DNA from: a virus
Length of the DNA stretch: 35,520 nucleotides
Strand: one strand, 5' to 3'
Virus record (IMG/VR): IMGVR_UViG_3300035670_000735
Coordinates: 1 to 35,520 of that record
The notes beneath the pieces are model-generated. The model was not told the origin of the DNA. It was given only the letters and a program-made list of their open reading frames with translations, and searched no databases. Positions 1 to 35,520 of the stretch are shown here, piece after piece (position 1 is the stretch's first letter; each line of letters begins with the position of its first letter). Made by a program: the position numbers and the translations under genes.

Positions 1-559
1 GTTTAAGTTCATCCACACTCGGCTCATCACCCTCTCCAATATAAAAATAATCTTTGATGGTGACGAGAGAATCGGTTTTATACTTGCACCGCGAATTACT
101 TGCCGTATAAGGAAACTGCGATTCGTCTGGAAGCCCGTACTTTTTCACGTAACTCCAAACATCATCAAACCACCCGCCGTTACATCCGTAGTTGTTGGAG
201 CACGACACAAGTTCCTGAGGAGATAATACAAGCCGAGAAAAAAAAGGACTTTTAATTATAAGTAAATCCTCAAGCTGTGATGTAGTTCCAAAACTATAAC
301 ACGAGCCGCATTTTCCCTGTGCCTTAACTGCACCAAGCCCTCCAGGAGTAACTGCGCGCCAGTCAAAGCTTTCAGGAAGCTGCGATAAAATAGGAACAGA
401 CGTCCTTCTCATCTCAGCTAGGTCTTTCTTTTTTAACCCAGTCTCACGAGGAAATGTGAAGTCCTTTTTAAAAAAAGTAGCAGTGCTGCTAAGAGCAACT
501 TGTGAGGCAGTTAAAAGAGAAAATAAAAAACAAAAACTAATTAGTCTTGCACTCAACAT
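1..559 (-). CDS. Papain-like (C1A) secreted cysteine protease, copy A, truncated by window edge
   Basis: The reading frame opens at the ATG at 557-559 and runs off the left edge after about 186 residues, so the C-terminal third is not visible. It starts with a hydrophobic signal peptide (MLSARLISFCFLFSLL) and then a short pro-region. The papain signature follows, here QGKCGSCYSF, with the catalytic Cys as the second Cys and the oxyanion Gln first; then comes the disulfide/CNGGW motif. The catalytic His and Asn lie beyond the edge. The start overlaps the end of the upstream collagen-like lipoprotein gene by 23 nt, which suggests translational coupling. It is a diverged copy of the complete gene at 34599-35432. 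The family hydrolyses peptide bonds; with a signal peptide the enzyme would act in the periplasm or outside the cell. The substrate is unknown. Confidence 0.85.
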   Translation of the reverse strand, partial: MLSARLISFCFLFSLLTASQVALSSTATFFKKDFTFPRETGLKKKDLAEMRRTSVPILSQLPESFDWRAVTPGGLGAVKAQGKCGSCYSFGTTSQLEDLLIIKSPFFSRLVLSPQELVSCSNNYGCNGGWFDDVWSYVKKYGLPDESQFPYTASNSRCKYKTDSLVTIKDYFYIGEGDEPSVDELK

Positions 560-647
560 ATTTTATCTCCCCAAAGCCTTTCCGAGAAAGAACAGCTTTT
601 CCATCCTTAAAATCAGCATCGAAAAACGCATTTCCAATCGCTAAAGA
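1..647. repeat. Left copy of a 647-bp near-repeat shared with the right end (34874-35520)
   Basis: Position n aligns with n+34873 without gaps across the whole 647 bp. The first 127 bases are identical, the last 56 bases (592-647) are identical, and a tract around the protease start (about 508-578) is also identical. The interior of the protease gene differs at roughly one base in five in the stretch I compared (128-180). The repeat covers the visible protease and the 3' part of the lipoprotein gene. It may be a tandem gene duplication, or an assembly overlap of a circular or terminally redundant genome carrying two alleles. Confidence 0.9.
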
Positions 648-986
648 GGAGTCGGTAAAAACAGCCGATGCAAAAAAATCGTGAGGAACCTTATCCTCGT
701 CAACATACGTTGTTTTAAGAGAGACAACACTTCCACCAGGGGTTTTTAATACCGAATACGTGTTTGTATATTTACGACCATACTCCATAACCCACTCGGC
801 AGAACATACCGTCGATTTAGCAGAATATCCTGGTCCCTGTGGTCCTACGGGACCTTGTGGTCCTTGTGGTCCAACCGGTCCTTGTGGTCCAGGTACGGTT
901 GAGTCTTTGCCGTCCTTACCATCGCGCCCAGGCATACCGCACGAGAACAATACGAACACTGCGAGTAAAACCGTTAATAATCGCAT
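537..986 (-). CDS. Collagen-like lipoprotein
   Basis: This 149-residue protein starts with a lipoprotein signal peptide whose lipobox is LFSC, with Cys16 as the predicted lipidated residue. Gly-X-Y triplets follow directly: four charged ones (residues 17-28, GMPGRDGKDGKD), a short break, then seven proline/glutamine-rich triplets (33-53). A globular C-terminal domain of about 95 residues has no family I recognise and contains two Cys. The likely product is a surface lipoprotein with a short trimeric collagen stalk holding a head domain. A strong Shine-Dalgarno (GAAGGAGA) precedes the ATG. Its end overlaps the protease gene, so the two are probably made together. The stalk codons form a near-repetitive GGTCC-rich tract that could vary by slippage. 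It might alter the host surface, for example in superinfection exclusion, or modify attachment; this is not shown. Confidence 0.85.
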   Translation of the reverse strand: MRLLTVLLAVFVLFSCGMPGRDGKDGKDSTVPGPQGPVGPQGPQGPVGPQGPGYSAKSTVCSAEWVMEYGRKYTNTYSVLKTPGGSVVSLKTTYVDEDKVPHDFFASAVFTDSSLAIGNAFFDADFKDGKAVLSRKGFGEIKYVECKTN

Positions 987-2807: not shown

Positions 2808-3227
2808 TTAGCACTTGTGCGTGTCTTTTTGAACACACTTTAGCTCTTTTATTTTTTCTTGCAATATACAAATTGAGTCGAATGACTCGTTGATTTTTCT
2901 AAGTATGTTTTCTTGCGAGTTTTCAACGATATGTACAGACTTTTCTAACATCTTAATGTTTCTTGCTGCAACAAGGGCTGTTGCAAGCTCTTTTTTAAAA
3001 TGATCAAACTGTCTGCGCAAAACCTCTACACTCTGAGACATGTGCATTATGTTTTTAACGTCTCCCTCAAGCTTTATAAACTTATGGTCAAAGCTTTCAA
3101 CCGATATAGAGACGTTATCTAATTGCTTTATTAACCGTTTAAAAAAGTAACAAATCCCACCAAATAAAACAGCAATTATGCTTATTGAGACGTGATTTAT
3201 TACTACCTGTAAGTTGTCAAGATTCAT
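2808..3227 (-). CDS. Membrane-anchored coiled-coil protein, possible holin or lysis accessory
   Basis: The 139-residue protein has one N-terminal transmembrane segment (about residues 12-31, SISIIAVLFGGICYF) and a long heptad-rich coiled coil (about 40-130). GGAG lies 7-8 nt before the ATG. It lies directly upstream of the endolysin on the same strand. The layout recalls small anchored phage proteins annotated as holin-like or lysis accessory, but no family motif is visible. It could equally be a virion or membrane-remodelling protein. Confidence 0.6.
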   Translation of the reverse strand: MNLDNLQVVINHVSISIIAVLFGGICYFFKRLIKQLDNVSISVESFDHKFIKLEGDVKNIMHMSQSVEVLRRQFDHFKKELATALVAARNIKMLEKSVHIVENSQENILRKINESFDSICILQEKIKELKCVQKDTHKC

Positions 3228-19759: not shown

Positions 19760-21013
19760 TTAGGCTGCGTTAACAATGTCCGTAATTACGAGCGTCTGGT
19801 TAATCTTTGTAGAGAAAACAGCCAAGTTTGCATACAACCGAGTTTCAACACCGGCGTTTGCATCCATCGGTTTAAGATAAACTTTAGCGCCGTCGCTAAC
19901 CATTCCAGGAAGTTCGAACGTAGGAACTGTTTGAGCTCCAACTAATTCGAAAGCCTTCGAAGCGGTTGGGTGAACGAAAGCAATACCTTCTTTCATCATG
20001 CGGTGAGCAAACACGTTAACTTTTCCTGCTGGGCAGTAGAAGCTAAGTTTTTCAGAACCGTTTGCTGCTTCGCTTGATTTGTAAGAGCTGTCTTGCTGAC
20101 GTAAAGCCGCCATGTCGTTCCCGAGGTCTGCCCAAGTTGTCGTAGAAACAACAACATCAAGCTCTGGGATAATGCCCATACCGCGGTTTGCGCCCTTAGC
20201 AATAGCTTTCATGATCTTGTTGAAAGACAAAGGAGCAGATCCTGCCGAATACGTACCAGCGCCACGCCATAGGCCGTAAGAAGCTTTATCGATTCCCCAA
20301 AGAGTTCCAGTTGTGGAGCTCATTGCTGAATAAAGACCAGTCATGCAGTTTGCGCCGCTAAGGCCGTCTGCAGCAAAGAAGATAACGTTAGTTCCAGCAA
20401 CGCCTGGGTCTGCATCAATCGTGAACTTTTTGGATTCGATGTCGTATCCAGTAACAACTGCGGTACCTACGTTAACGCCACCGGCTGTCTGAAACTTAAC
20501 AACGCGGTTTTCGCTACCAAGCCAAAGACGTGATGCGAATGATGCGTCTGTAACAGTTACTTCAAGACCGTTAATAGCAGAAACAACGCCAATACCAGTT
20601 TTTCCGTACATAATGTCGGCTTCAATGTAGAAATACATGCTTGTTAACATGTTTTCAATCACACCCTTTGAAGCTTGAATGAAAGCGTTTTTAGATTCAG
20701 AACGGAAGATTGTTTCATAATCTAAAGCGTCGCGTAGTAAGAACTGAGAGCCTTCAGCTTCGCTCTGACGAGAAGCCATAGAGATAACTGAATTTAAAGA
20801 GAATGCCCCTGCGTTTGCAGCAGCTTTCGTGATCCCTTGTGAAGAAGTAACGTTAACGGCAGCTTTATAGCTTCCGCCAGTTTTCCCACTTGCAGGGACT
20901 GGAGTACATTCTTTGCAATAGTAAACGTCTGAAGGAATAAGATCGACAATCTTATCCGCATAGGCGGTTTTAAACCAGCCTTGTACTTGAGTCATGTTCG
21001 TATGGTCAGCCAT
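19760..21013 (-). CDS. Major capsid protein
   Basis: The 417-residue protein follows the scaffold gene, which is the usual place of the phage major capsid gene. Its N terminus (DHTNMTQVQGWFKTAY) and the region with SEAEGSQFLLRDALDYETIFRSESK are compatible with an HK97-type fold: N-arm, long helix, P-domain, and a central beta insertion (about 145-215). Copies of it would build the icosahedral shell. The assignment is based on context, size and composition, not on a recognised signature. GC-rich codon choice differs from the AT-rich fibre region. Confidence 0.8.
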   Translation of the reverse strand: MADHTNMTQVQGWFKTAYADKIVDLIPSDVYYCKECTPVPASGKTGGSYKAAVNVTSSQGITKAAANAGAFSLNSVISMASRQSEAEGSQFLLRDALDYETIFRSESKNAFIQASKGVIENMLTSMYFYIEADIMYGKTGIGVVSAINGLEVTVTDASFASRLWLGSENRVVKFQTAGGVNVGTAVVTGYDIESKKFTIDADPGVAGTNVIFFAADGLSGANCMTGLYSAMSSTTGTLWGIDKASYGLWRGAGTYSAGSAPLSFNKIMKAIAKGANRGMGIIPELDVVVSTTTWADLGNDMAALRQQDSSYKSSEAANGSEKLSFYCPAGKVNVFAHRMMKEGIAFVHPTASKAFELVGAQTVPTFELPGMVSDGAKVYLKPMDANAGVETRLYANLAVFSTKINQTLVITDIVNAA

Positions 21014-22104: not shown

Positions 22105-24066
22105 CTATGTTAATGGTTTAGCTGAAGGCATCGGCTGAGAGCTAGGAGCTTGCTCAATCCCGCTTAGAGCTTGCTCCTGGCCCGTAACGTCGCCATCCAA
22201 CTCGTCGTTGGAAACCTGGTTAGGAGACGGGGCTTGTCCACCATAAATCATGGCAGCCAACTCATCTCCGTTTCTAACTAACTGCATATGCGCCGTAATC
22301 AAATTAGTTATGTTCTGTACAATTATTGCGTTGTCTGTATTATTGATTAAATCAATATCATAAAGCAGGGACTGAATCTCTTTGATGAACAGCTGGTGGT
22401 CGATTCCAGGAATCGCTGCTACTTGCTCTCCGGCGAGTAGCTTTTCTTTTACGTTTGCAATGTAATCAAGCATTCTTTCGTCTGCTTCTGTTGCTACGTT
22501 TAAATTCCCGGTGTTCATAACATCAAAGAATTGCTTCGGAGATATGATTCCTGTTTTTAAAAGCTCCATTGCTATTTCAATCTTACCGCTTGGAGTCTTT
22601 GCGATTGGATTTGTTCGGTCAATTATAACCCGACTAACACCGTCTAAATCTTTAGACGTGAATGTGGCGACAGCGGAACGCTGCGACTTACCACAGATCT
22701 CGTAAAGCCGTTGCTCGCTAGCTACTTCTTTTAGGGTTTGAAGTAAGAACGTTGTTATATCTTCAAACATTTCAAAATATGTTTGCTGAAGTGTCTGTGA
22801 GTATTCTTGAGCCTGGTTTATAACAGTGGCAATTGCTATTCCGCTTTTTAGGTTTGGGCTTTGAGCAATATTACCACGAACTACCGCTGACTGCCCGCTA
22901 AGAGTTTCCATCGTATTAATACATAAGCCCATCATGTTTGATAGGCCTGGATTCTCTCTATAGAAGTCGATAACCTCAGGCTTCACGTCTGAAGTAATTA
23001 CATTTAATGATCCGGATAACTCTTCTAAAGACAGATTAGCTCCAGATGGTTTCCAAATATTCATAACAGAACCAGCATTCATATTCGTAACCATGCTAGA
23101 GACTGCTATTGTTAAAGCCATCTGAGCAGATCTAAGTATGTTCGCTTCCGTAAACCCAAACGACGTTTCCATGTAGTGAGCAGGGCTTAGTCCAAAGATT
23201 GGAAGCCGATCTCTATATGGATTATCATTTTCATAAAGAGGTACTGGATTTTCGTTTGTCCCGCACCAAAGAATATACTTTCCTTTTGGAAGAACGTTAT
23301 TAGCGCGATGATATGTCGAGTAAAGCCATACGTCGTCACTATCGGAGTTATATAAACGGTCTCTCAGAAGGTCGCTGTACGGATCGTCCTTATAGTTTAT
23401 TTTAAGAGCTAATATTTTTTCTTTTTGTTTAGGAAATATAGATGCTAGATCGTATTTATTTCTTTTGCGACGAAACGTAACCCAGTCCCAATTTTGAAGA
23501 CATTTTTTCGTAGGATCGTAGAAAACATTTATTGGAGAAAGCGACTCAAATTCAAAATCACCTTCCCTAATATATCTTCCATTTTGATCAATTGTAACAA
23601 TCTTTCCAATTGATGGATTAAACTCAACCGCAATAAACCCGTCTCCATACACAACAGCCTTCTCTGCCGTTTCGTGCATGGTTTTATTAAGCCGCTTTGT
23701 TTTGTAGTAGTAGTTGACTAGATCTCTTCCGATTTTTGCGGAACGGCGTGAGCGGATATCAGTATTCGTTGCCGATACGTCAAAGACTGGATCGTTTGAT
23801 GTCAGAGAGTTGACGATATGCCGCAAGATGTTTCTGAAGTGATTAAAGCTCATCGCTTTAAGCTCTCCAATATCCCCCGTATCAATAATATCGTTTGAAA
23901 TTGAGTCAGATCCGCCGAGCATTCTATTTTCGTAGAACGCGCGGTTCTTGTTCCACACATGGATTAGGCCGAGATCGAGGATATACTTTTGGAAAGAATC
24001 GATGCGTTTAGCAAGCTCGCTAGTTAGTTCATCCCCTGATTTAGCAAACCAATACGTATTTTCCAT
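22105..24066 (-). CDS. Portal protein
   Basis: The 653-residue protein is the size of podovirus portals. It has the helical N-terminal wing, a central EKAVVYGDGFIAVEF segment (typical of portals) and a Gln-rich helical crown (about 410-440), followed by a disordered C terminus. Position between large terminase and scaffold supports the call. It would form the dodecameric vertex ring through which DNA is packaged and ejected. The 79-bp gap to its left neighbour in transcription holds no other gene. Confidence 0.85.
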   Translation of the reverse strand: MENTYWFAKSGDELTSELAKRIDSFQKYILDLGLIHVWNKNRAFYENRMLGGSDSISNDIIDTGDIGELKAMSFNHFRNILRHIVNSLTSNDPVFDVSATNTDIRSRRSAKIGRDLVNYYYKTKRLNKTMHETAEKAVVYGDGFIAVEFNPSIGKIVTIDQNGRYIREGDFEFESLSPINVFYDPTKKCLQNWDWVTFRRKRNKYDLASIFPKQKEKILALKINYKDDPYSDLLRDRLYNSDSDDVWLYSTYHRANNVLPKGKYILWCGTNENPVPLYENDNPYRDRLPIFGLSPAHYMETSFGFTEANILRSAQMALTIAVSSMVTNMNAGSVMNIWKPSGANLSLEELSGSLNVITSDVKPEVIDFYRENPGLSNMMGLCINTMETLSGQSAVVRGNIAQSPNLKSGIAIATVINQAQEYSQTLQQTYFEMFEDITTFLLQTLKEVASEQRLYEICGKSQRSAVATFTSKDLDGVSRVIIDRTNPIAKTPSGKIEIAMELLKTGIISPKQFFDVMNTGNLNVATEADERMLDYIANVKEKLLAGEQVAAIPGIDHQLFIKEIQSLLYDIDLINNTDNAIIVQNITNLITAHMQLVRNGDELAAMIYGGQAPSPNQVSNDELDGDVTGQEQALSGIEQAPSSQPMPSAKPLT

Positions 24067-24145: not shown

Positions 24146-25543
24146 CTAGGAGCCCACAAGTCTTTTTAAATTCACTTGACTTTTTTTAAAAAGTTCTGGG
24201 CTTATGAAGTGATCTGACCGAGTGACACCACTTTGAATCACTGGATAAGGATTTTCGTGAAAGTCGGTATTGTCGACCATGTAAGCAAGAGCCATAAGTG
24301 CGTCCAAATGCCCCATCGTTTCAGTCCGTTCAAAATCAGTCCTTCGCTCGTTCCAGATACCGTATTTAAGCTGAATCCTTGTGTTTGGAAGTTCGTCCGG
24401 ATCCATTGCTATGCGGTTATTAGATATGGCGACACGAAGGCCGTTGAGAACAGACTCACGAAATCCAGTATTATTCATCTTGCTGCGTTTAACTATTGGT
24501 GAGACTGGGTATCCCTGGTCTTTGCTTAAGTCGTAAAGTTGCTGTGGGTCAGAGCTATCTCCGAGTCTTCTTATGTTTGTCTTTATTCCTAAAGACCGTT
24601 CTACTTCTTTGCAACTTTCTGCGAGTTCTCGTGTGGACATATAGTTTGCGAGGAATTCTTTAACGAGAATCAGTTTGGCCTGTTTAAAATCGACATAACC
24701 CCATATTGCTGCAAAGTAGTCTTTAAGCCCAAGATCACAGCACATGAACCAATTAAAGTATTCAGGACGTTGATGTATTGATACATACAACGACTCGTCC
24801 TGAGCTTCTGGGATAACCAGGCGGGAGCGGTTGGCTATTAGATCAAGTTTATATTCACGTTTATACGCGTCGGAATCAATTCCTCCAGATCTTCCTATAA
24901 TTTTTTGATGAAGATCTTCGGACACATCTCCAGATCTGATTGAATCGTCGATATCCCATCTAAACATATTCCCGCTAAGTTCTGCGGATGCTAGTTCTTG
25001 CAAATAATAGTGCGTTAGATCTTCTGGTGGCGTTGATGTAACAACCAGCTGGCCGTCGGTTGTGTCGAGCTGTGGCGAAAGTACCGATTTAAGAATATAT
25101 TCCGGTTTATATTTCCAAAATCCGAACTCATCGCATATGATTATATGTGATTCAGTTCCCCGAGCCTTATCTGCTTCTCCACTATCTTTGCAGCCGAATA
25201 TGTGCATGCGAGAGCCGTTTGGCCAGTGGTATTCACCCATGCGTAGTTGCGGTTTTTCACTTGGGGCATGTGAGTAAATGTGGTCAATTAATATTTGTAA
25301 AATATCATAAGCCTGTGCCTGCGTTGGTGCGCCGTAACGAATGATTATTGGGCGTTTTACTGCCTCTTCAAACGCGTATACAAGTACAGTTGTTCCTTTT
25401 CCAAACCTGCGGTGACAATTAGCAATAAGGCGTTTTTTTATACGTAGTAATTTATAAAGTTTATATTGAGACGCTCTAAGATACCAAGGAGCGATGACTG
25501 CGCACTTATAGAACGCTGCATAATCATTTTGAGTAAGATGCAC
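24146..25543 (-). CDS. Terminase large subunit
   Basis: The 465-residue protein has the packaging ATPase motifs: Walker A at 43-52 (CHRRFGKGTT), Walker B at 134-139 (IIICDE) and the coupling motif TSTPP (169-173). A C-terminal RNase-H-like nuclease has Asp270 (CCDLG), Asp329 (GDSSDP) and Asp414 (HLDAL). It starts with GTG one base after the small-terminase stop. It cuts concatemeric DNA and drives it into the prohead through the portal. All three nuclease acids are present, so it looks functional. Confidence 0.92.
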   Translation of the reverse strand: MHLTQNDYAAFYKCAVIAPWYLRASQYKLYKLLRIKKRLIANCHRRFGKGTTVLVYAFEEAVKRPIIIRYGAPTQAQAYDILQILIDHIYSHAPSEKPQLRMGEYHWPNGSRMHIFGCKDSGEADKARGTESHIIICDEFGFWKYKPEYILKSVLSPQLDTTDGQLVVTSTPPEDLTHYYLQELASAELSGNMFRWDIDDSIRSGDVSEDLHQKIIGRSGGIDSDAYKREYKLDLIANRSRLVIPEAQDESLYVSIHQRPEYFNWFMCCDLGLKDYFAAIWGYVDFKQAKLILVKEFLANYMSTRELAESCKEVERSLGIKTNIRRLGDSSDPQQLYDLSKDQGYPVSPIVKRSKMNNTGFRESVLNGLRVAISNNRIAMDPDELPNTRIQLKYGIWNERRTDFERTETMGHLDALMALAYMVDNTDFHENPYPVIQSGVTRSDHFISPELFKKSQVNLKRLVGS

Positions 25544-30627: not shown

Positions 30628-31101
30628 TTAAAAAGGAAGTCCATCGTGAGACGTAACAGTTTCTTTTCTTTGAGGTTCTTTGAAAACAGTAAGTTTATCT
30701 AAACACGCTAATAACTCACCAGTAACCGCAGCTTTCTTTGCCTCGGGCTTTACGTTAATCCACTTAACCGTAGGCCAAAGGCGTGATTCGTTTCCAGTCA
30801 TCTCAACGACGAGCTCAACGTCACGATCTGCGTTGAGTACGAATCCACTTTCGGCAGAAAGTTTAAGAACACTTTGACGATCAGTAATATTATAACCAAG
30901 AAGTTGAATTGTTTTTATCGCAGCTTCAGCAGATTTATCTGTATGAAAAAACCCAGACCATTTCACGGTTTCGTCTGAGCCGGTGATCTGAAACGTAACC
31001 TCAACTCGCAGCTCAGCTGAGTTGTTGTTGTTTCGGTTCACCCACGGAATTAAATCATGCTTAATTGGTTTTGCTAAATACTTCCCGGCTTCTAAAGTCA
31101 T
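30628..31101 (-). CDS. Putative single-stranded DNA-binding protein
   Basis: The 157-residue protein is beta-rich in its first 125 residues (compatible with an OB fold). It ends in a flexible tail, SHDGLPF, very similar to the acidic DD-I-PF tip with which bacterial SSB proteins recruit partners. It overlaps the RecT stop by ATGA with AAGGAG upstream, so the two are coupled. With RecT and primase as neighbours, protection of single-stranded DNA is the natural role. The core domain itself does not show a standard SSB signature that I can name, so the family is not settled. Confidence 0.6.
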   Translation of the reverse strand: MTLEAGKYLAKPIKHDLIPWVNRNNNNSAELRVEVTFQITGSDETVKWSGFFHTDKSAEAAIKTIQLLGYNITDRQSVLKLSAESGFVLNADRDVELVVEMTGNESRLWPTVKWINVKPEAKKAAVTGELLACLDKLTVFKEPQRKETVTSHDGLPF

Positions 31102-31841
31102 TTGTCAGTCTCCTTATTGTTTTGTTCTTCGATTATTTTTTCAACCCGCTCAACCATACGGCGAAGTGCGTCGAGATCGTTTCGGTGAGAGTCATAGTAC
31201 CGCTCCACCTTATCACATATGTCAGGATCTTTCACGTGCAGTAGTAAACTTTCGAGTGTGCGAGTCATGTCTTCGCACGCAGCTGCGTACCCGTCGTCTC
31301 TTCGCGCAGGGATATCAATTATATCGTCACTCGACGGATCCCCGCCAAGCTCTTCGGCAGTATATGATCCGAGGATGGCGTCAGGAAAAACGGCTCGAGC
31401 TACAGCACTTATACACCGCGCACGAAGCATCGCTGCCGGGTAGTTCTGCCACGGTGTCTTAGACATAAGCTTCGCAGCTTTTGCGTCTTCAATTGTAAAT
31501 GAAAACGTAGAGAACGCATCGACAGAGTTTCTTCGAGCATTAATCACGCACTCTGCCGCAGAAGTCTTTACGAATATAATCTGAGCTGAAGGGCATTTTT
31601 TGTAAATTAGCGCAAGCATTAGTTCTGCTGATAGTGTCGGCTTGCCGTTAATAACAGCGATCGAGGAGAATGAACTAATTGGTGGTATGCCGAGCTCTCT
31701 TCCTTTGAGAAGTATAATTATTGCCTGTTCTACTGTTTTTATAGAGTCCGGCAGAAACTTAGAATTAAGTGCGATGTGTGCTATTTTAGAAAGCCCAGCT
31801 AGATCGGACTCGCTAGGAATAACGTCGAGTTCATTTGCCAT
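31098..31841 (-). CDS. RecT-family single-strand annealing recombinase
   Basis: The 247-residue protein shows the RecT pattern: an N-terminal region with KTVEQAIIILLKGRELG and PPISSFSSIAVINGKPTLS, then FTIEDAKAAKL, W-QNYPAAMLRARC and AVFPDAILGSYTAEEL. This set is typical of the RecT-type phage annealing proteins. It would pair single-stranded DNA in recombination-dependent replication or repair. No RecE- or lambda-type exonuclease is adjacent. AAGGAG lies inside the end of the Cro-like gene, which overlaps its start. Confidence 0.85.
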   Translation of the reverse strand: MANELDVIPSESDLAGLSKIAHIALNSKFLPDSIKTVEQAIIILLKGRELGIPPISSFSSIAVINGKPTLSAELMLALIYKKCPSAQIIFVKTSAAECVINARRNSVDAFSTFSFTIEDAKAAKLMSKTPWQNYPAAMLRARCISAVARAVFPDAILGSYTAEELGGDPSSDDIIDIPARRDDGYAAACEDMTRTLESLLLHVKDPDICDKVERYYDSHRNDLDALRRMVERVEKIIEEQNNKETDK

Positions 31842-34006: not shown

Positions 34007-34612
34007 ATGGAGAAAGAAAATTTAGTTGGTAAAAAAATAGGACGATTATCTGTTATAAGACAAGAATCGCGAGATAAATTTTTTAATAGAATGTTCCTAT
34101 GTATTTGCGACTGTGGTAATGAAAAAACGGTCTCATTTAGTCATTTAAACAGCCGGCATACCATGTCTTGCGGTTGCTTAAAAAAAGAACCGAGACCGAG
34201 AAAACACGGCATGTCATGTTCTCCAGAATACTATACTTGGAGTGGTATGAAGGCGCGATGTAAGCCTGATACGAAAAATTATAATTGTCAAATATATGTG
34301 GCTAAAGGAATAAAATTATGTGATAGGTGGAAAAAATTTGAAAACTTTCTAGAAGATATGGGAACCAGACCGACACCGCAACATACACTAGATAGAATTG
34401 ATAACGATGGTAATTATGAACCAGGAAACTGTAGATGGGCTACAAAATCAGAGCAGGCCATAAACAGAAAAGGAGCAATTAACATTATTTATAAAGAAAC
34501 AAATTTAAACTTAAAAGAGTGGTCTGTAAAACTAAAAATTTCGTATTCATGCTTATATGCTAGAATCAAAAAAAGAAAATGGTCCATAGAAAAGGCGTTT
34601 AATACAAAATAA
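34007..34612 (+). CDS. HNH endonuclease with zinc-ribbon N terminus and HTH C terminus
   Basis: The 201-residue protein has three parts. The N-terminal half is a Cys-rich zinc-binding domain (CICDCG, later SCGCLKK). The middle carries the phage HNH core: YTWSGMKARC, GIKLCDRWKKF, DMGTRP, HTLDRIDNDGNYEPGNCRWA. The end is a helix-turn-helix (about 159-201) of the type found alone at 33135-33338. Such enzymes act as free-standing homing endonucleases or in packaging. The gene is more AT-rich than its neighbours and lies at the end of the rightward operon, convergent with the protease gene (14-nt overlap), as for a mobile gene. Confidence 0.8.
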   Translation: MEKENLVGKKIGRLSVIRQESRDKFFNRMFLCICDCGNEKTVSFSHLNSRHTMSCGCLKKEPRPRKHGMSCSPEYYTWSGMKARCKPDTKNYNCQIYVAKGIKLCDRWKKFENFLEDMGTRPTPQHTLDRIDNDGNYEPGNCRWATKSEQAINRKGAINIIYKETNLNLKEWSVKLKISYSCLYARIKKRKWSIEKAFNTK

Positions 34613-35432
34613 CAGCCGTAGCATGTTCTCCGATTCTATTGCACTTGAGCCCATTTGAATCAAGCATTTTCATTCTAATAAAGCCGTCTTCACCGTATTC
34701 TGTTCCCCAGCTGTTTCGAACCACCCAAACGTCTTTCTCAAAAGCTACAAGCTCCACTAAATGGTTCACATCTCTTCCGCGCGAACACGTGTTAAGCACG
34801 CCACCACCGTAATTCATAAAATCACCGCCTGCATAAACCGATACAGCTAACGGTCCGTAAAGTATCAACGCACGTTTAAGTTCATCCACACTCGGCTCAT
34901 CACCCTCTCCAATATAAAAATAATCTTTGATGGTGACGAGAGAATCGGTTTTATACTTGCACCGCGAATTACTTGCCGTATAAGGAAACTGCGATTCGTC
35001 AGGAAGCCCAAACTTCTTAACATAATCCCAAACAGCATTAAACCAGCCTCCGTTACATCCATAGTTATCTGAGCACGAGACAATCTCTTGAGGAGCTAAT
35101 ACAAGACGAGAGAAAAAAGGGCTTTTAATAATCAGCAAATCCTCAAGCTGCGATGTCGTACCAAAGCTATAGCACGAACCACACGACCCCTGGTTCTTTA
35201 CCGCACTTAATCCGCCAGGTGTAACAGCGCGCCAGTCAAAACTTTCAGGAAGCTGCGGTAAAACCGGAACGGACGATTTTCTCATTTCAACAAGGTCTTT
35301 CTTTTTTAACCCAGTTTCACGAGGAAATGTAAAGTCTTTTTTAAAAAAAGTAACAGCTTCTCCAAAAGCTCTGTTAGATGAGATTAAAAGAGAAAATAAA
35401 AAACAAAAACTAATTAGTCTTGCACTCAACAT
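34599..35432 (-). CDS. Papain-like (C1A) secreted cysteine protease, copy B, complete
   Basis: The 277-residue protein has a signal peptide (residues 1 to about 24), a pro-region of only about 35 residues, and a mature papain fold starting at LPESFDWRAV. QGSCGSC places the catalytic Cys at 87 with oxyanion Gln81. Further motifs are CSDNYGCNGGW (120-130), NHLVELV with His224 and NSWG with Asn240, so the catalytic set is complete. The I29-type inhibitory propeptide of eukaryotic relatives is absent. It would be exported and cleave proteins in the periplasm or outside the cell; the target is unknown. Its start overlaps the collagen-like gene. Such an enzyme is unusual for a phage. Confidence 0.9.
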   Translation of the reverse strand: MLSARLISFCFLFSLLISSNRAFGEAVTFFKKDFTFPRETGLKKKDLVEMRKSSVPVLPQLPESFDWRAVTPGGLSAVKNQGSCGSCYSFGTTSQLEDLLIIKSPFFSRLVLAPQEIVSCSDNYGCNGGWFNAVWDYVKKFGLPDESQFPYTASNSRCKYKTDSLVTIKDYFYIGEGDEPSVDELKRALILYGPLAVSVYAGGDFMNYGGGVLNTCSRGRDVNHLVELVAFEKDVWVVRNSWGTEYGEDGFIRMKMLDSNGLKCNRIGEHATAVILY

Positions 35433-35520
35433 ATTTTATCTCCCCAAATCCTTTTCTAGAAATTACAGCTTTTCCATCCTTAAAATCAGCATCGAAAAAC
35501 GCATTTCCAATCGCTAAAGA
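34874..35520. repeat. Right copy of the 647-bp near-repeat shared with the left end
   Basis: The same relation as described for 1-647, offset by 34873. The first 127 bp (34874-35000) and the last 56 bp (35465-35520) are identical to the left copy, the protease interior is diverged, and the contig ends inside the lipoprotein gene. The right copy shows the protease gene complete. Confidence 0.9.
35410..35520 (-). CDS. Collagen-like lipoprotein, copy B, C-terminal end only
   Basis: The frame open to the right edge encodes the last 36 residues, identical or nearly identical to copy A (end DGKAV-SRKGFGEIKYVECK, with one substitution seen). The stop at 35410 overlaps the protease start by 23 nt, the same arrangement as at 537-559. 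The rest of the gene, including the collagen stalk, would lie beyond the window. Confidence 0.8.
   Translation of the reverse strand, partial: SLAIGNAFFDADFKDGKAVISRKGFGEIKYVECKTN

Follow-up and report, generated by a model that had tools for sequence, protein, structure and literature searches.

Two protease alleles at the ends of a phage record that is very probably one lap of a circular map

Genes at the record ends and in the rest of the genome

The window analyzed in this study is the whole IMG/VR virus record IMGVR_UViG_3300035670_000735, which has a length of 35,520 bases and is filed as linear by IMG/VR. Both ends contain a protease gene and an overlapping lipoprotein gene, all located on the minus strand. 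The left end holds protease codons 1–186 and the entire lipoprotein, and the right end holds the entire protease and only the last 36 lipoprotein codons. The record as filed cuts off part of the gene at each end. An earlier note on this DNA described a protease-lipoprotein cassette at both ends; both genes are indeed involved, but each copy is only partial.

The left protease (allele A, 2–559; PF00112, 7.8e-31) runs off the contig start beyond codon 186, and the right one (allele B, 34599–35432; PF00112, 7.6e-51) is complete, with a size of 277 aa. Allele B has an N-terminal signal-peptide-like stretch. Its Peptidase_C1 domain scores 173.7 bits against a curated cut-off of 20.7, and an alignment to dipeptidyl peptidase I (PDB 1jqp, 2.8e-35) reveals all residues of the papain site (Gln81, Cys87, His, and Asn). 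The gene is thus predicted from its sequence to encode a secreted papain-family (C1A) protease. The lipoprotein (537–986, minus strand) carries a signal with a lipobox-like Cys and short collagen-like G-P-Q repeats, and its final codons overlap the beginning of the protease gene. In the other haplotype, the contig end cuts this lipoprotein down to its last 36 codons (35410–35520, minus strand). A scan for lipoprotein relatives gave matches mainly to the collagen-like repeats.

Three further minus-strand genes lie near the left end. A small protein of an unnamed family with a ‘DGKI’ motif (1001–1285) recurs in seven further protease-bearing contigs (L010, L014, L017, L025, L026, L028, L038) and directly adjoins the protease in three or four of them; most members of this family have no PHROG match. 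The second gene encodes an endolysin of the M15 peptidase type (2337–2702; phrog_894, 5.7e-31; PF08291, 2.4e-17), and the third a membrane and coiled-coil protein (2808–3227) with a weak Rz-like spanin match (phrog_739, 0.0037). At the other side of the protease, an HNH endonuclease gene on the plus strand (34007–34612; phrog_374, 1.8e-60) converges with the protease gene and overlaps its end by 14 bp. The GC content of the HNH gene is 33%, compared to 41% for the genome, and a stretch of about 200 bp is about 70% identical at the DNA level to HNH genes of Staphylococcus phages; the gene is probably a mobile arrival.

The remainder of the genome is that of a tailed phage. We identified, all on the minus strand, a portal protein (22105–24066; phrog_156, 2.3e-20), a terminase large subunit (24146–25543; phrog_2, 5.4e-22; PF03237), and a RecT-like annealing protein (31098–31841; phrog_561, 4.4e-24). 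A putative major capsid protein (19760–21013, minus strand) was assigned by its position and has relatives in contig G001 (60% identity) and in a Silvanigrella phage (25%). Tail genes, a primase, and a RusA-like nuclease are also encoded. Among annotated phages, recognizable relatives of the portal, terminase, and putative capsid proteins occur only in the phage of Silvanigrella aquatica (CP017838), which weakly suggests that the host may lie within the Bdellovibrionota.

Terminal match and circular map

Direct comparison of positions 1–647 with 34874–35520 yields a gap-free alignment with 87 mismatches (86.6% identity), a match far above chance level. Identical runs are found at 1–127 (127 bp), 511–575 (65 bp), and 592–647 (56 bp), and the first mismatch is at base 128. 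The diverged core, which has no strand as a feature, spans 128–510 in allele A and 35001–35383 in allele B, with 82 mismatches over 383 bp (78.6% identity). The other five mismatches are grouped at 576–591, within the lipoprotein gene. The earlier note had given the gap-free alignment and the identical ends of 127 and 56 bp exactly, and its estimate of about 80% for the core agrees with our value. Identical terminal repeats, as expected for a linear phage genome with direct repeats at its termini, were not found, as the two ends are 86.6% identical and both end genes are cut. The linear class given by IMG/VR is expected, since the record ends are non-identical.

The 127-bp word (1–127, identical to 34874–35000, no strand) represents the assembly-graph vertex where alleles A and B part. 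We read the terminal sequences of 25 other protease-bearing IMG/VR contigs and found exact terminal repeats of exactly 127 bp in five of them (G006, G007, G008, G027, and G032). This indicates that 127 is the assembler word length in this collection and, with the mismatch at base 128, bears out the earlier suggestion that the identical start equals an assembly k-mer. End overlaps of maxK length are known at contig break points of metaSPAdes, and within-population variation has been simulated as one source of assembly fragmentation (COBRA; PMC10914622).

As input for a k = 127 graph, we used the 34,873-bp circle carrying allele A together with the observed part of allele B. The graph contains a single branching vertex, at position 1, and two unitigs of 35,000 and 647 bp, which are an exact prefix and suffix of the record (35,000 + 647 − 127 = 35,520), a result that is partly built in because the record’s own sequence went into the graph. 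Two points are informative: the first base of the record coincides exactly with the branch vertex, and the common word has a length of exactly 127 bp. In addition, closing the circle restores an intact allele A protease of 277 codons across the join. The ends thus share an exact word of assembler length, and the genes are intact across the junction.

The record is therefore very probably one lap of a circular map that ends in a second protease allele, with no duplication involved. The source would be a 34,873-bp circular map of a tailed phage, assembled from a short-read metagenome with a word length of 127, and the record would comprise one lap plus 647 bp. The sample would contain at least two haplotypes, presumably coexisting in one population, which have a common genome except that the N-terminal two thirds of the secreted papain-type cysteine protease differ between them. 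The contig would begin at the 127-bp vertex from which the haplotypes diverge, follow allele A around the circle back to that vertex, then exit along allele B and halt 520 bp later. The virion DNA is probably circularly permuted. From the topologies proposed earlier, a circular or circularly permuted molecule is retained, but terminal redundancy is not, as the ends differ. In a clean two-allele bubble, the B branch would rejoin A and end, after 127 identical bases, at a point corresponding to position 718, but it actually stops at the equivalent of 647 (35520) with 56 identical bases. The likely cause of this early stop is either that B has low coverage or that a third haplotype is present.

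Two other protease-bearing contigs show comparable ends. The ends of G019 are diverged copies, 89% identical over 995 bp, in genes located about 0.8 kb from its protease. The starting 77-mer of G020 recurs about 0.9 kb before the contig end, at the 5' end of the protease gene, and the sequences differ thereafter. Both are probably circular genomes that were not called as such (G019: L094, L095; G020: L096, L097), and the phenomenon is therefore general to variable loci in such assemblies. Contig breaks lie within the protease gene in G006 and G031, and the branch word of G020 touches its 5' end; the statistics do not support the protease as a preferred break point, with end distances being only marginally skewed over all 34 related records (KS p 0.05) and p 0.43 for the 23 contigs longer than 25 kb.

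Divergence of the two alleles and alternative explanations

The two alleles differ in a manner expected for genes under purifying selection. Between codons 32 and 145, dN is 0.077 and dS is 1.14, and third codon positions account for 52 of the 82 changes. The substitutions within the protease frame are of six types (AG 26, CT 20, AC 13, AT 13, GT 8, CG 2), in agreement with the earlier remark that the changes are not limited to one base type. The signal-peptide end is the least conserved part of the protein, and the catalytic residues are kept, with Gln81 and Cys87 present in both A and B. Given the low dN relative to dS and the predominance of third-position changes, the divergence is most likely real and not an artefact. 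Beside the oxyanion Gln81, allele A has Ala80 and Lys83, at positions occupied in a set of 35 homologous sequences almost exclusively by Asp/Asn and Ser/Asn, respectively; judged from these residues, the specificity or activity of allele A may differ. At the differing sites, homologues match A and B equally (66 to 66), giving neither allele precedence in age.

At the substitution rate of the core, identical runs of 65 and 56 bp have a chance of about 1e-7 and 1e-6, respectively. Such runs are thus very unlikely, and the haplotypes are mosaics. We infer recombination as the source of this pattern, with the RecT-like protein as a possible route. These results support the earlier proposal of two secreted-protease alleles with a mosaic pattern that fits recombination, which was partly based on the flat identity of the flanks. 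This sign is only partly informative, because the contig starts at the common graph vertex, which by itself makes the left 127 bp identical. The further proposal of a phage locus that swaps a protease module, as an active process, goes beyond the data, which show no more than two alleles within a single assembly.

Four other explanations were weighed. A true tandem duplication, with lipoprotein-protease copies A and B side by side and an assembly broken within the repeat, is compatible with the contig taken alone, as a missing piece between 35520 and 1 could complete both copies. This piece would amount to unseen sequence at both contig ends, whereas the closed circle already yields intact genes and only one complete protease is present in the record. 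Moreover, a single papain protease is present in each of the 34 related viral records; G006 and G031 gave extra matches, but in each case these represent opposite ends of one gene. The duplication put forward in the earlier note is therefore highly improbable. It is very unlikely that the record is a chimera in which the common 127-mer links the genome to a terminal 520 bp from a different but related phage of the sample. The high divergence of the core (dS about 1.1) between identical flanks would agree with such a chimera, as would the B branch without a clean rejoin, but 100% identity resumes over 65 and 56 bp beyond the core. Allele B must then come from a genome that is nearly the same in the flanks, and the only difference from one circular lap with two alleles is the relatedness of the B genome.

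The two remaining explanations concern the origin of the variation. Homing of the HNH endonuclease at the 3' end of the protease gene could have driven co-conversion of its flank, leaving the near third of the gene identical and the far two thirds diverged. The HNH gene directly adjoins the protease, and its atypical GC content and similarity to Staphylococcus phage genes mark it as probably mobile. Identity resumes on the far side as well, however, and we found no HNH gene next to the protease of the nearest relative (G001). We consider homing unlikely as the cause of the mosaic, though compatible with a circular lap that runs into a second allele. Dense local variation within one gene could also recall targeted hypermutation by a diversity-generating retroelement or a similar system, but this has a negligible probability: all base changes are present, mostly synonymous and not adenine-specific, the scanned open reading frames include no reverse transcriptase, and a repeat search found no template copy other than the two contig ends.

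Protease-bearing relatives and comparison with known systems

The nearest viral relatives were found by a search with a protease alignment. At least 34 other diverse IMG/VR viral records (L008–L041) encode a papain-family protease, in several cases beside an endolysin. G001 is the nearest relative of the phage, with identities of 65% (terminase), 61% (portal), 60% (putative capsid), and 42% (protease), and its protease gene overlaps an M15 endolysin gene. Across the set, the neighbors of the protease include M15 endolysins, Amidase_2 amidases, and a GH108 muramidase, among others. In two phages, thioredoxin/AhpC-TSA-like proteins are probably located near the papain protease (L019:9271–9744 and L026:2868–3908) and are possibly linked to the cysteine protease. 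Single-protein scans of viral contigs with the protease, terminase, and portal gave no close relatives, and a scan with a portal alignment gave none that could be confirmed. Protease scans yielded no match in annotated phages, three weak matches in plasmids, and one weak Omnitrophota match in genome contigs. In the part of the literature searched, we found no paper on papain proteases in phage lysis modules.

The most likely role of the predicted protease, at about even odds, is to aid the breakdown of an envelope or surface protein during lysis. A more tentative and rather doubtful extension is that phage lysis modules repeatedly include secreted papain-type proteases as a fast-changing accessory, perhaps where the host is a predatory member of the Bdellovibrionota; the proteases would digest a proteinaceous envelope or prey remnant, and their allelic turnover would follow that substrate.

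The match between the ends was thus accurately observed; its main cause is very probably mundane, an assembly wrap at a polymorphic gene, combined with a moderately interesting phage gene family. The papain-type protease represents a little-described class of phage genes. A complete phage genome can be filed as linear when its closing point falls in a variable gene, as the k-mer word is present but the ends are not identical. Such genomes could be recovered, and variable loci flagged, by screening virus collections for contigs whose start word of assembler length occurs again close to the far end.

Compared to known systems, the protease shares with peptidase family C1A (papain, cathepsins) a whole-length PF00112 match, the Cys/His/Asn residues, and the oxyanion Gln, with dipeptidyl peptidase I as the nearest member in the PDB. 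It differs in being encoded by a tailed phage and in having a short pro-region with no inhibitor I29 match. The protease, the M15 endolysin, and the lipoprotein lie within one late block on the lysis side, which resembles phage lysis gene blocks with endolysin and spanins; standard blocks are not known to contain a secreted protein-cleaving enzyme such as this protease. Phage MWH-Nonnen-W8red 1 of S. aquatica shares relatives of the portal, terminase, and putative capsid with this phage, as well as other structural proteins (about 20–32% identity), but no papain protease was found in it. Finally, the record has the same 127-bp end word as circular metagenomic contigs with a k-length overlap (metaSPAdes, k = 127; COBRA, PMC10914622). 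In contrast to these contigs, it extends 520 bp beyond the common word into a second allele, so that a terminal-repeat test reports it as linear.
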